In this document: in pieces, positions 15,195 to 19,997 of the stretch | Layout of the letters: each line of letters begins with the position of its first letter | How positions within the stretch are numbered: the stretch's first letter is position 1 | From: Acidobacteriota bacterium | Lineage (GTDB): Bacteria; Acidobacteriota; Thermoanaerobaculia; Gp7-AA8 | Assembly: GCA_021325515.1 (NCBI GenBank) | Contig: JAJPHC010000024.1 | Span: 1-64,000 of the forward strand | Length of the DNA stretch: 64,000 nt | Reading direction: 5' to 3' | Translations under genes and position numbers: made by a program | Notes under the pieces: generated by a model | Told to the model about the DNA's origin: nothing | What the model saw: the letters and a program-made list of their open reading frames with translations, nothing else | The model's database searches: none

Positions 15195-15944
15195 ATGATT
15201 CCCCGGGCCTACCATGACATCCGCAGGCTCCCCCGTGCGGAGCTGAAAGATTTCCTCGGCGAGAACCTCCTTACGCTCGCGGAAGAAGAGGCGTGGGCGG
15301 TCATCGAGAATCCGTACGTGACTCCGGCGATGCTGCTCGCCATCGCGCAGAGCCAGCGTCTCGCTGCTTATTACTCCGTCCGGGTCAGGCTCGTTGCGCA
15401 CCGGCAGACGCCGCTGGCGCAGTCGGTCAAGCTCATTCACTATCTCTATTTCTTCGATCTGGTTCGTCTGTCGGTCGATGTCACGGTTCCCGCTCCCGTC
15501 CGCCGCGCGATCGAGACGCAGCTTCTGCTTCGCGTCGACAAGCTGACGCTCGGCGAGCGCATCGCGAGCGCGCGCCGTTGCAGCTCTGCTCTCATCAAGG
15601 TCTTTCTCGCTGATCCCGATGTGCGCGTGTTCGAGACGGTGCTCGCGAACCAGCGCGTCCGCGAGGACGACATCCTCGCCGTGATCGCCTCGCGCGAGAC
15701 GCAGAGCGAGAAGCTGCAAATGATCGCCGACGATCAGAAGTGGTCGTATCGCTATGCGGTGCGCAAGGCTCTCGTGCTGAATCCGGCGACGCCTCGCTCG
15801 GCGGCTGCGCGGCAACTGCGGTTCCTGACCGCGCGCGATCGCCGCCAGCTCCTGCAGAATCCCACCATATCGACCTATCTGCGCCGCTGCATCGAGCGGA
15901 TGCACGCGAAGGATTTCTCGGCGCATGTCGAGCGAATTGAATAG
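15195..15944 (+). CDS. Alpha-helical-repeat protein (HEAT/DUF2336-like)
   Basis: I cannot name this 249-residue protein. It is all-helical with short repeated helical pairs, for example VIENPYVTPAMLLAIAQSQ, VLANQRVREDDILAVIASR and ALVLNPATPRSAAARQL, spaced about 38-75 residues apart, in the manner of leucine-rich-variant, HEAT or DUF2336 repeats. No membrane segment or signal is seen. It heads a seven-gene operon and resembles the third gene (16818-17909) in style, so the two may be paralogues. The start ATG is preceded by a 181-base divergent gap that should hold the operon promoter. A protein-binding scaffold role is inference. Confidence 0.65.
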   Translation: MIPRAYHDIRRLPRAELKDFLGENLLTLAEEEAWAVIENPYVTPAMLLAIAQSQRLAAYYSVRVRLVAHRQTPLAQSVKLIHYLYFFDLVRLSVDVTVPAPVRRAIETQLLLRVDKLTLGERIASARRCSSALIKVFLADPDVRVFETVLANQRVREDDILAVIASRETQSEKLQMIADDQKWSYRYAVRKALVLNPATPRSAAARQLRFLTARDRRQLLQNPTISTYLRRCIERMHAKDFSAHVERIE

Positions 15945-16821
15945 AATGCACGAATCGATGAGTGATCAGGATGCGCAGGCGCATTCCGAGCTCGCCTCCT
16001 TCGGGGAGGAGCTGAAACGGGAGCGGGAGATTCGAGGAATCTCTCTGAAAGAAATCTCGGACGAGACCAAGATCAGCAAGCGCTTCCTCGAAGCTCTCGA
16101 GCGCAATGATCACAAGACGCTGCCTGCTCCTGTCTTCACCCGCGGATTCGTCCGTCAATACTCGCGCTACCTCGGGATCAATGCCGAGGAGATGGTGAAT
16201 CGGTACAACTACGCGGCGGCGGGCGACGATCGAATCGAGAAGAGCACGCAGCTGGAGCGCCTCGTTCAGCCGCCGGTGCCGCCGGGACAGCCGCAGAGCG
16301 GGAAAGGCATCCCGCCGCTCTACGCGCGCATCGACCGCAACATCTACATCACGATCGCCATCGTCGCGGCGCTGGCGATCGTTGCCTGGTGGGCGTTCCG
16401 CTACAAGGAACAGCGGTCGGTCGAGGAAGCGGAAGCCGCGGCGCATCCTCCGGTCGTCGCGTCGTCGAGCGCCGCGGTGGCTCCGAAGTCCGTGGCGACG
16501 GTCCCGGCCCAACCAGCCGCTGCAGCAGCCGGCGATGTTCTCCGCATGACGCTCGATGTGAACGACAACTCCTGGGTCACGCTCGAAGTCGACGGCAAGA
16601 TCGTCGTCAGCGACGAATTGAAAGCGGGCGAGCACCGGACGTACGAAGCGAAAGATCGCTTCCGCTTCAAGACGGTCGGAAATGCCGGCGGCGTCGCGCT
16701 GACCATCAATGACATTCACATCCCTTCGCTCGGACGCGACCGGCAGGTCGTGCATGATCGCGTCTTCGATCGCGAATGGCTTCGCAGCCACGCCAGTTCT
16801 CCGGATCAGAACCACACATGA
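15925..16821 (+). CDS. RodZ-like HTH/DUF4115 protein
   Basis: This protein of up to 298 residues has the RodZ layout: an N-terminal HTH_25 domain (LKREREIRGISLKEIS ... ISKRFLEALE, about residues 30-100), a single membrane segment near 133-152 (IYITIAIVAALAIVAWWAF), an Ala/Pro-rich linker, and a C-terminal periplasmic DUF4115 domain (DNSWVTLEVDGKIV). RodZ links MreB to the cell-wall elongation machinery. Start choice is uncertain: ATG 15925 overlaps the upstream gene by 20 bases and has AAGGA upstream; ATG 15946 or 15958 are alternatives. It may be a RodZ homologue serving the wall-related genes downstream (PP2C, L,D-transpeptidase). Confidence 0.85.
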   Translation: MSSELNRMHESMSDQDAQAHSELASFGEELKREREIRGISLKEISDETKISKRFLEALERNDHKTLPAPVFTRGFVRQYSRYLGINAEEMVNRYNYAAAGDDRIEKSTQLERLVQPPVPPGQPQSGKGIPPLYARIDRNIYITIAIVAALAIVAWWAFRYKEQRSVEEAEAAAHPPVVASSSAAVAPKSVATVPAQPAAAAAGDVLRMTLDVNDNSWVTLEVDGKIVVSDELKAGEHRTYEAKDRFRFKTVGNAGGVALTINDIHIPSLGRDRQVVHDRVFDREWLRSHASSPDQNHT

Positions 16822-17909
16822 CCAATGTCCCTTCAGACCTCAATTCCGGCTCCGTCATCGAGCTGATCGAGTCAGGCGCGTATCCACGGGACGTCGTTCT
16901 CACGATTGCTCGCGGATTTCTTCCTCTGGCGCAGGAAGAGCTGGTCGCTGTTCTCGCGTGGCTCACTGCGTACCCCGATGCGGAGATCGCGGAAGCATCC
17001 CGCGCCTCGATTGCCGAGCTCCCGCCGCGGGTAGTCCTCACATTTGCCTCCAGCGAGGAGAGCAATGCGGACTACCTCTCGCGTCTGCTGCTGGCCAGCC
17101 ATGATCAGACGGTCGTCGAAGCACTGATCCGCAACAAGACCATTCCCGATTCGGCCGTGCTCGATCTCGCGCGCCATGCCGAGCCGGCGATCCAGGAAGT
17201 CATCGTCATCAACCAGGCTCGTATTCTCCGCACGCCGGAGATCCTCGATGCCCTGCTCGAGAACCCCACGCTGTCGATCGACGTCCGCAGACGCGCACTC
17301 GAAACGCGCGAGGAGTTCTTCGACAAAAAGGCGCGGCTGCTCCGTGTCGAGCTGCCGCCCGATCTGCCGATCGAGCCCGATCTCGTGGACGCACCACTCG
17401 ACGAGATCGCCGATCTTCTCGAGAAGGCCGAAGAGCCCGAGTTTCAGCAGACGTCTGCGCCGGAGCTCAACTCCGAGGACAAGAAGGATGAGAAGAAGGT
17501 CGCGGAGTGGGTGAAGATCCTCAACATGTCCGTGGCCCAGAAAGTGGTGATCGCTTTCCGCGGCGACAAGTCGGTTCGCATGCTGCTCGTCCGTGAGCGA
17601 AACAGGCTGGTGGCAGGCTCCGTGATGCGCAACCCGCGCATGTCGGAGCAGGAAGCGGAGATCATCGCGGGAATGCGGAACGTCGACGAGGAGGTTCTGC
17701 GGCTCCTCTCGCTGAGGAGAGACTGGATGACCAAGTATCCTGTCGTCCTGGCACTCTGCAGAAACCCGAAGGCGCCGATAGGGGTTGTCCTCACGTTGAT
17801 CAATCGGTTAGCCTTAAGAGATTTGAAAAGCCTGAAGGATGACCGTGGCGTCGCGGAAGTGGTCCGTTCGAGTGCAAGACGGGCGTATCTGCAAAAGACA
17901 CAGAAGTAG
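16818..17909 (+). CDS. Alpha-helical-repeat protein, unassigned
   Basis: This 363-residue all-helical protein has repeated short helical pairs (VVEALIRNKTIPDSAVLDLARHA, ILDALLENPTLSIDVRRRAL), then a charged linker (about 210-235, EDKKDEKKVAEW) and a second helical domain (MLLVRERNRLVAGSVMRNPRMSEQEAE). I chose the ATG at 16818, which overlaps the RodZ-like stop (ATGA), instead of a start 42 bases earlier. It looks like a longer relative of the first gene of the operon. No enzyme motif is visible; a scaffold or response-type protein is inferred. Confidence 0.7.
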   Translation: MTNVPSDLNSGSVIELIESGAYPRDVVLTIARGFLPLAQEELVAVLAWLTAYPDAEIAEASRASIAELPPRVVLTFASSEESNADYLSRLLLASHDQTVVEALIRNKTIPDSAVLDLARHAEPAIQEVIVINQARILRTPEILDALLENPTLSIDVRRRALETREEFFDKKARLLRVELPPDLPIEPDLVDAPLDEIADLLEKAEEPEFQQTSAPELNSEDKKDEKKVAEWVKILNMSVAQKVVIAFRGDKSVRMLLVRERNRLVAGSVMRNPRMSEQEAEIIAGMRNVDEEVLRLLSLRRDWMTKYPVVLALCRNPKAPIGVVLTLINRLALRDLKSLKDDRGVAEVVRSSARRAYLQKTQK

Positions 17910-17919
17910 CTCGATCTGA

Positions 17920-18564
17920 ATGAAGATCAATTACTACGAGGTGCTGGGCGTGGAGCGTAGCGCAACGGAGCAGGAAATCCGCGACCGTTTCCGCCAACTC
18001 GCGCGCGAACAGCATCCGGATCGCTACCGCGGCCCTGACAAGGCTGGCGCCGAGCGGAAATTTCAGACGCTGACGGAAGCCGTCAACGTCCTGACGAATG
18101 CCTCGCGCCGCAAACAGCACGACAGCGAGCTGGCCAGCGGAGGCGGAAAGAACGTCGATTTCGGGCAGATCGCCAAGGCGTACATCGCCAAAGGCGTCAA
18201 GGCATACAAGGATGGCGATCTGAAATCCGCCTTCGAGAATTTCGACATGGCGGTCAAGCACAATCCGCAGGACGCGAAGGCGCAATATCATTTCGCTCTC
18301 GTGGCCAAACGATTTCCCAACACGCTGCGGCAGGCGGTGCAGGCCATCGAGCTCGCAGTGCAACGCGATCCTGTCAATCCGGTGTACTTGAAAGAAGCTG
18401 GTGAGCTCTTCAAGAAGGTGAATCTGGTGACCAAGGCTGAACGCTACTTCGAGGAGGCTTTGAAGTGGGACCCGCAGAATCTCGAAGTGCAGGCGGCGCT
18501 CGGAGAGCTCCGCGGCTCGAAAGAGCCAGCCAAGACCGGCTTAGGCCGGTTCAGGAAGAGCTAG
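17920..18564 (+). CDS. DnaJ-domain protein with TPR region
   Basis: This 214-residue protein has an N-terminal J domain (NYYEVLGVERSATEQEIRDRF, with the essential HPD at EQHPDRY, about residue 31) and a C-terminal tetratricopeptide region (KAYKDGDLKSAFENFDMAVKHNP, then AERYFEEALKWDP). J domains stimulate DnaK ATPase, and the TPR part would select clients. The Gly/Phe and zinc-finger regions of classical DnaJ are missing, so this is a type III J protein. It starts 10 bases after the helical-repeat gene and ends 5 bases before the phosphatase start. Confidence 0.88.
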   Translation: MKINYYEVLGVERSATEQEIRDRFRQLAREQHPDRYRGPDKAGAERKFQTLTEAVNVLTNASRRKQHDSELASGGGKNVDFGQIAKAYIAKGVKAYKDGDLKSAFENFDMAVKHNPQDAKAQYHFALVAKRFPNTLRQAVQAIELAVQRDPVNPVYLKEAGELFKKVNLVTKAERYFEEALKWDPQNLEVQAALGELRGSKEPAKTGLGRFRKS

Positions 18565-18569
18565 TGCGA

Positions 18570-19325
18570 ATGGAGATCAAGGCTTACGGTCTGACCCACG
18601 TCGGGCGCCAACGCCAGCACAACGAGGACTCGTACCTCGTGGCTGACGAGGCGAAGCTCTTCCTCGTTGCCGACGGAATGGGTGGACATGCCGCGGGCGA
18701 GATCGCCTCGCGCATCGCCGTCGATTCCATCTCCGAATTCATCCTTCATACGAAGGAAGACGACGGAACGTGGCCGCATGCCTACGACGAGCACTACAAG
18801 CGCTCGACGAATCGGCTGATGGCCGCCGTTCGTCTTGCGAATACCCGCGTGCTCGAAGCGATGCGCAAGGATGCGCGGCTCCGCGGCATGGGAACCACCG
18901 TCGTCGCCTGTCTGGCGGAAGGCGACACGCTCTCCGTCGCGCACGTCGGCGATTCGCGCGCCTACATGATTCGCGACAACCAACTGCAGCGCATCACCAA
19001 CGACCACTCCTGGGTGTTCGAGCAGGTGCAGGCCGGGATGCTCACCGAAGCCGAGGCAGAGAAGCATCCGCTGCGCAACGTCATCACCCGCGCCCTCGGC
19101 GGCGCTCTTCAGGTCAATCCCGACGCCTCGGAGATCGAAGTGAAAGAGGGAGACCTCTTCCTTCTCTGTTCCGACGGTCTCACCGGCATGGTTCCGGAAG
19201 AGCAGATCCTCAAGGTTGTGACGGAGTACGGCGATCTCGAAAAGGCCTGTCAGAAACTGATCGACGAGGCGAACGAGCGCGGCGGTCTGGACAACGTCAC
19301 AGCCATTCTCGTGAAGGCGGTCTGA
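18570..19325 (+). CDS. PP2C-family serine/threonine phosphatase
   Basis: This 251-residue stand-alone PP2C phosphatase has all the metal-binding motifs: HNEDSYLV, ADGMGGHAAGE, GTTVVACL, VGDSRAYMIRD, LLCSDGLTGM and GGLDNVTAILV. It dephosphorylates Ser/Thr on proteins and usually works with a Hanks-type kinase, which is not in this window. I chose ATG 18570, which has AGGAAGAG about 9 bases upstream; a GTG at 18564 would add two residues. Its neighbours RodZ, DnaJ-TPR and an L,D-transpeptidase suggest a role in envelope growth control. Confidence 0.93.
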   Translation: MEIKAYGLTHVGRQRQHNEDSYLVADEAKLFLVADGMGGHAAGEIASRIAVDSISEFILHTKEDDGTWPHAYDEHYKRSTNRLMAAVRLANTRVLEAMRKDARLRGMGTTVVACLAEGDTLSVAHVGDSRAYMIRDNQLQRITNDHSWVFEQVQAGMLTEAEAEKHPLRNVITRALGGALQVNPDASEIEVKEGDLFLLCSDGLTGMVPEEQILKVVTEYGDLEKACQKLIDEANERGGLDNVTAILVKAV

Positions 19326-19329
19326 CATC

Positions 19330-19554
19330 GTGCACGTTCGTATCGACTACTGCGGCGTTTGAAACTATCTTCCCCGAGCCTCCAGTCTGGCGGCTGAGAT
19401 CAAGAAAGAGTTCGGCATCGACAGCGAGCTCGTTCGCGGCAGCGGCGGCATCTTCATCGTCACCGTCGACAATCAGAAGATCTTCTCGAAGAAAGAAGAA
19501 GGACGTTTTCCGTCGGAGCGCGAGATCCTCGACGCACTTCGCGCGAGAGCGTGA
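19330..19554 (+). CDS. SelW/Rdx-family selenoprotein with in-frame TGA (Sec)
   Basis: This 74-residue reading frame is interrupted only by TGA at 19360-19362. Reading that codon as selenocysteine gives a Rdx/SelW thioredoxin-like protein: RIDYCGV-Sec-NYLPRA at the N-terminus, SLAAEIKKEFG, SGGIFIVTVD and KIFSKKEEGRFPSE. The TGA falls exactly on the second position of the family's CxxC/CxxU redox motif. Downstream of it lies a SECIS-like hairpin. Start GTG is 4 bases after the PP2C stop with AAGGCGG about 9 bases upstream; its final TGA overlaps the next ATG. Rdx proteins are thiol redox proteins of uncertain substrate. Conventional gene callers would truncate or miss it. Confidence 0.88.
19377..19395 (+). 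promoter_or_regulatory. SECIS-like hairpin
   Basis: AGCC (19377-19380) pairs with GGCT (19392-19395), a T/C mismatch follows, then CC (19382-19383) pairs with GG (19389-19390) around a five-base loop AGTCT. The loop begins 22 bases after the TGA. Bacterial SECIS elements lie within the coding sequence about 16-37 bases after the Sec codon and carry a G at the start of a small apical loop; this hairpin fits both rules and its loop resembles that of E. coli fdhF. Confidence 0.7.
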
Positions 19555-19997
19555 TGTTGCTCGCTGTTCTCGCGCTGCACGTCAATCTGATCGTCGTGGA
19601 GAAGGGCAAGCACACGATGACGCTCCTCGATCATGGACGCGTCGTGAAGTCCTATCATGTCGCCCTCGGTCCGGATCTCGCGCCAAAGAAGAAGAAGGGG
19701 GACGGCCGTACGCCGGAAGGGCGTTACATCATCGATGGGCGTAACGCGGCAAGCCACTACCACCGCGCGCTGCACATTTCGTATCCGAGTGCCGCCGATC
19801 GCCGCAATGCTCGCCGGCGCGGCGTCGATCCTGGCGGCGACATCATGATCCATGGCTTGCCGAATGGAACTGGCAAGCTCGGCAAGCTTCATCTCGCGCG
19901 TGACTGGACACTCGGCTGCATCGCGGTGACCGATGAGGAGATCGAAGAGATCTGGAAACTCGTGCCGAACGGAACGCCGATCGTGATCAAGCCGTGA
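19554..19997 (+). CDS. YkuD-type L,D-transpeptidase-like protein
   Basis: This 147-residue protein begins with a short hydrophobic stretch and is essentially one YkuD catalytic domain. The active-site region is visible as IMIHGLPNG followed by DWTLGCIAVTDEEI, with the nucleophile Cys in LGC and the upstream catalytic His in IHG. The domain forms 3-3 cross-links in peptidoglycan or anchors proteins to it. The classical SHGC is replaced by TLGC, as in many ErfK-type members. ATG 19554 overlaps the selenoprotein stop (TGATG), so it closes the seven-gene operon. Confidence 0.88.
   Translation: MLLAVLALHVNLIVVEKGKHTMTLLDHGRVVKSYHVALGPDLAPKKKKGDGRTPEGRYIIDGRNAASHYHRALHISYPSAADRRNARRRGVDPGGDIMIHGLPNGTGKLGKLHLARDWTLGCIAVTDEEIEEIWKLVPNGTPIVIKP

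Follow-up and report, generated by a model that had tools for sequence, protein, structure and literature searches.

We conclude, with a probability of about 0.97, that the frame at positions 19330 to 19554 (forward strand) of the DNA analysed here is a selenocysteine-encoding selW gene, whose product would be a SelW-type redox protein with a CxxU motif. The DNA, called the window below, is a stretch of 64,000 nucleotides (positions 1 to 64,000 of contig JAJPHC010000024.1, assembly GCA_021325515.1) from a soil Acidobacteriota bacterium of the class Thermoanaerobaculia. This reading of the sequence is founded on the frame itself, the protein family, the conservation of the UGA, a covarying SECIS and a complete selenocysteine-decoding machinery.

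A predicted selW frame interrupted by one TGA

We read the frame from a predicted GTG start at 19330 to a TGA stop at 19552-19554, giving 74 residues. A single TGA at 19360-19362 interrupts it, as the sequence-only reading had claimed and as we confirmed on the letters themselves. When this UGA is read as selenocysteine, it encodes residue 11, the final position of the CxxU redox motif (CGVU), and the read-through product is VHVRIDYCGV(U)NYLPRASSLAAEIKKEFGIDSELVRGSGGIFIVTVDNQKIFSKKEEGRFPSEREILDALRARA. The same reading had described both ends of the frame as meshing with the neighbouring genes, and this was found to be so: 4 nt separate the start from the preceding stop codon of a PP2C-type phosphatase gene (TGA, 19323-19325), and the stop shares 1 base (19554) with the ATG at which an L,D-transpeptidase gene begins. 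Given the close spacing, selW translation is probably coupled to the PP2C gene. A promoter scan found no promoter, and the one terminator-like site detected was not above the number obtained in shuffles.

The product belongs to the Rdx family

The read-through product matched the Pfam Rdx profile (PF10262) above its cut-off, with an E-value of 1.1e-19 over profile positions 1-73 of 74. It also scored 96.2 bits against NF041051, the NCBIfam SelT/SelW/SelH equivalog (cut-off 88), exceeded the curated cut-off of TIGR02174 and matched SelW-related proteins of solved structure at the sequence level. A structure prediction based on 44 sequences of the window and the loci had a mean pLDDT of 92.9 and showed a thioredoxin-like fold of the SelW type. 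Its best PDB matches (2fa8, 2obk, 2ojl, 2oka, and 3dex) were all SelW-family proteins, with a TM-score of about 0.9. In the model, CGVU occupies residues 8-11, between a strand (residues 3-8) and a helix (residues 14-28), so that the motif follows the first strand as in CxxC/CxxU proteins of this type. Y7, C8, C/U11, G40, and F42 are invariant. The Cys-form Rdx structures (2fa8, 3dex, and others) resemble the window protein in fold and in sequence, but the alignments place Cys, not Sec, at their last motif position. A fold match was also obtained with mouse selenoprotein W (2npb, E 1.1e-3), an Rdx protein with CxxU that is more distant in sequence. The mouse protein differs in its eukaryotic decoding, with the SECIS in the 3' UTR (PMC13188914). 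Since no obvious signal peptide could be read in the sequence, the product is likely cytosolic.

The genome encodes a complete selenocysteine system

The genome (5.38 Mb, 99.8% complete) is a draft of 63 contigs. The tRNA-Sec search gave one match of 69.8 bits for a gathering score of 47, and ARAGORN called the same gene tRNA-SeC with anticodon tca (UCA); the next four matches of the search were three tRNA-Ser and one tRNA-Leu. Matches above the curated cut-offs were obtained for selA (473.6 bits), selB (373.6 bits) and selD (375.8 bits), so that all four components named for a check by the sequence-only reading are present. The selD gene itself carries one in-frame TGA (L018:1528; G000:C2) in the context TTGG-U-ACK, and the stretch that follows folds into a hairpin. 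The genome therefore has at least two selenoprotein genes.

These data bear on a decoding of the UGA otherwise than as selenocysteine, by near-cognate read-through or by reassignment to Trp. UGA reassignment occurs in some bacteria. Here, however, TGA terminates other genes, including the PP2C gene (19323-19325), and also selW itself, a tRNA-Sec with a UCA anticodon is present and homologues carry Cys rather than Trp at the position. We consider such a decoding very improbable.

The TGA and the downstream frame are conserved in the phylum

We surveyed 297 Acidobacteriota genomes with a homologue threshold of E 1e-5 or better, and homologues were found in 90 of them. The motif codon was TGA in about 84 of these genomes (83 from the match table and one, G265, from reading the loci) and TGC, giving CxxC, in 6. 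The sequence-only reading had suggested checking homologues for an exchange of Cys and Sec at this position, and the counts show one. A seventh apparent CxxC form, at locus L041, arose from the motif search itself and was rejected: the gene of that genome carries TGA. Comparing the tables by hand, we found a selA and/or selB match (E 1e-60 or better) in 82 of the 84 TGA-form genomes, against a base rate for selA of 192 in the 297 genomes. The two without such a match, G080 and G127, are 75% and 64% complete, respectively. Cys forms occurred in G061, which gave no selA or selB match, and also in genomes having these matches.

Two further observations came from this survey. Five genomes of family f28 (G201, G295, G169, G128, and G019; loci L120, L122, L127, L128, and L131) contain only a Cys-form Rdx gene (CTQC) despite having selA and selB. 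The locus read in G265 (L125, region G265:C2:171564-171740), from a genome with selA and selB, has a divergent Rdx-like frame with the motif CFFU (RRCFFURD), and the usual hairpin sequence is absent there. This frame may represent a distinct Rdx subfamily.

The identical TGA recurs in independent assemblies from many sites. A sequencing or assembly error turning TGC into TGA, which a draft in 63 contigs might suggest, is thus extremely improbable.

Selection was measured on the 60 codons following the TGA in 15 sequences of the family (105 pairs). The median dN was 0.195 and the median dS 0.764, for a dN/dS of 0.27, a value that would be an overestimate if the SECIS depresses dS. The reading frame contained no stops in these sequences, while the other two frames contained stops in many of them. 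Relatives thus keep the frame downstream of the TGA, as the sequence-only reading had anticipated for a genuine selenoprotein gene. Alternatively, the frame could be a pseudogene, in which mutation of TGC, the active-site Cys codon of an Rdx gene, created a stop. This requires a single base change, and CxxC homologues do exist. It is nevertheless highly improbable, as about 84 genomes of many families retain the TGA with purifying selection acting downstream of it, and as the gene is accompanied by a covarying SECIS (see below) and by the full selenocysteine system of the genome.

A covarying hairpin follows the UGA

A putative SECIS stem-loop was located at 19377 to 19395 on the forward strand, 21 nt after the UGA. 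It consists of an outer stem (AGCC/GGCU), a U-C mismatch, an inner stem (CC/GG) and the loop AGUCU at 19384-19388, of which A and U may also pair to leave a 3-nt loop. The hairpin thus has 6-7 pairs and one mismatch, and the MFE is -9.9 for a 41-nt stretch. The published bacterial SECIS model specifies a loop of 3-9 nt, a stem of 4-16 bp, a G in the first two loop positions, a distance of 16-37 nt from the UGA and an MFE of -7.5 kcal/mol or lower (PMC13188914), and the window hairpin agrees with it. An Rfam scan of the locus at loose thresholds gave nothing relevant. Folded singly, the window hairpin did not exceed shuffles in stability (z -0.9 or weaker). For this reason, we moved the test to the alignment, with a null in which codons were redrawn for identical amino acids, and the support for the SECIS of the window comes from this alignment rather than from its own fold.

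With the U of the UGA numbered 1, the sequences align without gaps from the UGA on over the hairpin. Positions 24 and 30, the third positions of two codons, were paired in 74 of 75 distinct sequences (C-G in 64, G-C in 10), for 45% expected under the synonymous null. Similarly, positions 21 and 33, again both third codon positions, were paired in 97% of the sequences as compared with 43% expected. The G-C state of pair 24-30 was found in families f15, f37, and f40 and is scattered over the SelW tree, many forks of which are weak; from this distribution, the G-C form probably arose more than once. Only segments whose first base lies about 7 to 19 nt from the UGA were stabler than the synonymous null, with the largest excess at 15 nt (mean z -1.27, s.e. 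0.10). The commonest loop letters were GGUCU, AGUCU or AGUUU. Altogether, the family profiles, the fold match, the conserved TGA and the decoding genes uphold the original proposal of a SelW/Rdx selenoprotein with CxxU.

Conservation of the gene neighbourhood

Four neighbouring genes on the forward strand of the window encode a RodZ-like protein (15925 to 16821, Pfam HTH_25 and RodZ_C), a DnaJ-domain/TPR protein (17920 to 18564, Pfam DnaJ, E 9e-19), the PP2C-type phosphatase (18570 to 19325, Pfam PP2C_2, E 2.6e-20) and, downstream of selW, the YkuD-type L,D-transpeptidase (19554 to 19997, Pfam YkuD, E 1.4e-21). Among named records, the nearest are MAGs of Acidobacteriota, and several of these bear the label Thermoanaerobaculia or 'gp7'. 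We compared 17 Thermoanaerobaculia loci, some of which are contigs identical to those of survey genomes (e.g., L133 and L052), so that the counts from the loci and from the survey are not independent of each other. A CGVU selW followed the PP2C gene at a spacing of about 0-140 nt in 15 of the 17, and in the other two (L134 and L138) the PP2C gene lies within 150 nt of the contig end. The order RodZ, a protein without Pfam match (16776-17909), DnaJ/TPR, and PP2C was present in nearly all 17 loci, within the extent of their contigs, and this order, with selW after PP2C, was kept in all four survey genomes of the same family. This protein and a second one without Pfam match (15195-15944) keep their positions beside the RodZ-like, DnaJ/TPR and PP2C genes within the family, with 44-61% identity.

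The transpeptidase gene was found beside selW in none of the 17 loci and in none of the four same-family genomes; it was seen there in the window genome only. In the genome G055, of the same order, gatC-gatA follow selW, which lies there without the remaining neighbour genes. In more distant genomes, no window neighbour recurred beside selW, apart from stray opposite-strand DnaJ matches. A further survey, of neighbours in distant lineages, was noisy because the naive ORF calling used for it picked long antisense ORFs in G+C-rich DNA, and no result rests on it.

The sequence-only reading had placed selW in a cell-envelope operon with RodZ, PP2C, and transpeptidase genes. The linkage to RodZ and PP2C stands, being conserved in the family, whereas that to the transpeptidase was seen in the window alone, and outside the family selW lies elsewhere. 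As the transpeptidase is not conserved, the term cell-envelope operon was an over-reading, and a direct role of SelW in the cell envelope is a weak inference that these data do not support. We also considered whether SelW acts with its fixed neighbours (PP2C, DnaJ/TPR, and the RodZ-like protein) in this Thermoanaerobaculia family, where it might, for instance, serve as a sensor dependent on selenium or redox state that tunes a phospho-signalling or cell-shape pathway. This seems unlikely.

Proposed mechanism and relation to known systems

By analogy with well-studied relatives, SelB would bind the hairpin, which lies 21 nt beyond the UGA, and would bring Sec-tRNA(Sec), with its UCA anticodon, to this codon, and delivery of selenocysteine there would yield full-length SelW. 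Judging from its family, the product would be a soluble thioredoxin-like protein, in which Cys8 and Sec11, in the loop joining the first strand and the first helix, would cycle between the selenol/thiol and the selenenylsulfide state. It would thereby reduce a partner or a peroxide.

That bacterial SelW-like selenoproteins are known, as the sequence-only reading had stated, is well documented. A 2006 list already includes those of Geobacter, Desulfotalea, Symbiobacterium, and others (PMC1794560), and SelW-like proteins formed the largest selenoprotein family of the Global Ocean Sampling data, with 427 sequences (PMC2398784). Those of Epsilonproteobacteria were noted as missed in annotation (PMC4607533), and for C. 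jejuni SelW, ribosome profiling and proteomics demonstrate full-length translation through the UGA (PMC11955535). Like the window protein, Campylobacter jejuni SelW (NF041051, SelTWH_Campy) is a small Rdx protein (80-81 aa in Campylobacter) with a UGA-encoded Sec, whose gene annotation misses (PMC11955535), and the window product exceeds the cut-off of this Campylobacter equivalog model. The Campylobacter protein differs in coming from another phylum and in having been detected by proteomics, whereas SelW of the window is predicted from sequence. The SelW-like selenoproteins of marine and anaerobic bacteria share CxxU and the Rdx family with it, but the window gene belongs to a soil Acidobacteriota and is linked to PP2C within one family. 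A search of the open-licence literature for work on selenocysteine in Thermoanaerobaculia returned no paper.

The window selW is therefore a further example of a bacterial SelW type known for about 20 years; it holds little surprise and leaves the general picture unchanged. The linkage to PP2C at the level of the family may be its sole new feature. The gene illustrates clearly how standard gene calling breaks or misses a conserved frame, and the covariation at synonymous sites yields a clean alignment of the SECIS in Acidobacteriota. Of the genomes sampled from this phylum, which is abundant in soil, about 28% have the TGA form of SelW, and the conserved linkage to PP2C gives one lead on the physiological role of bacterial SelW.
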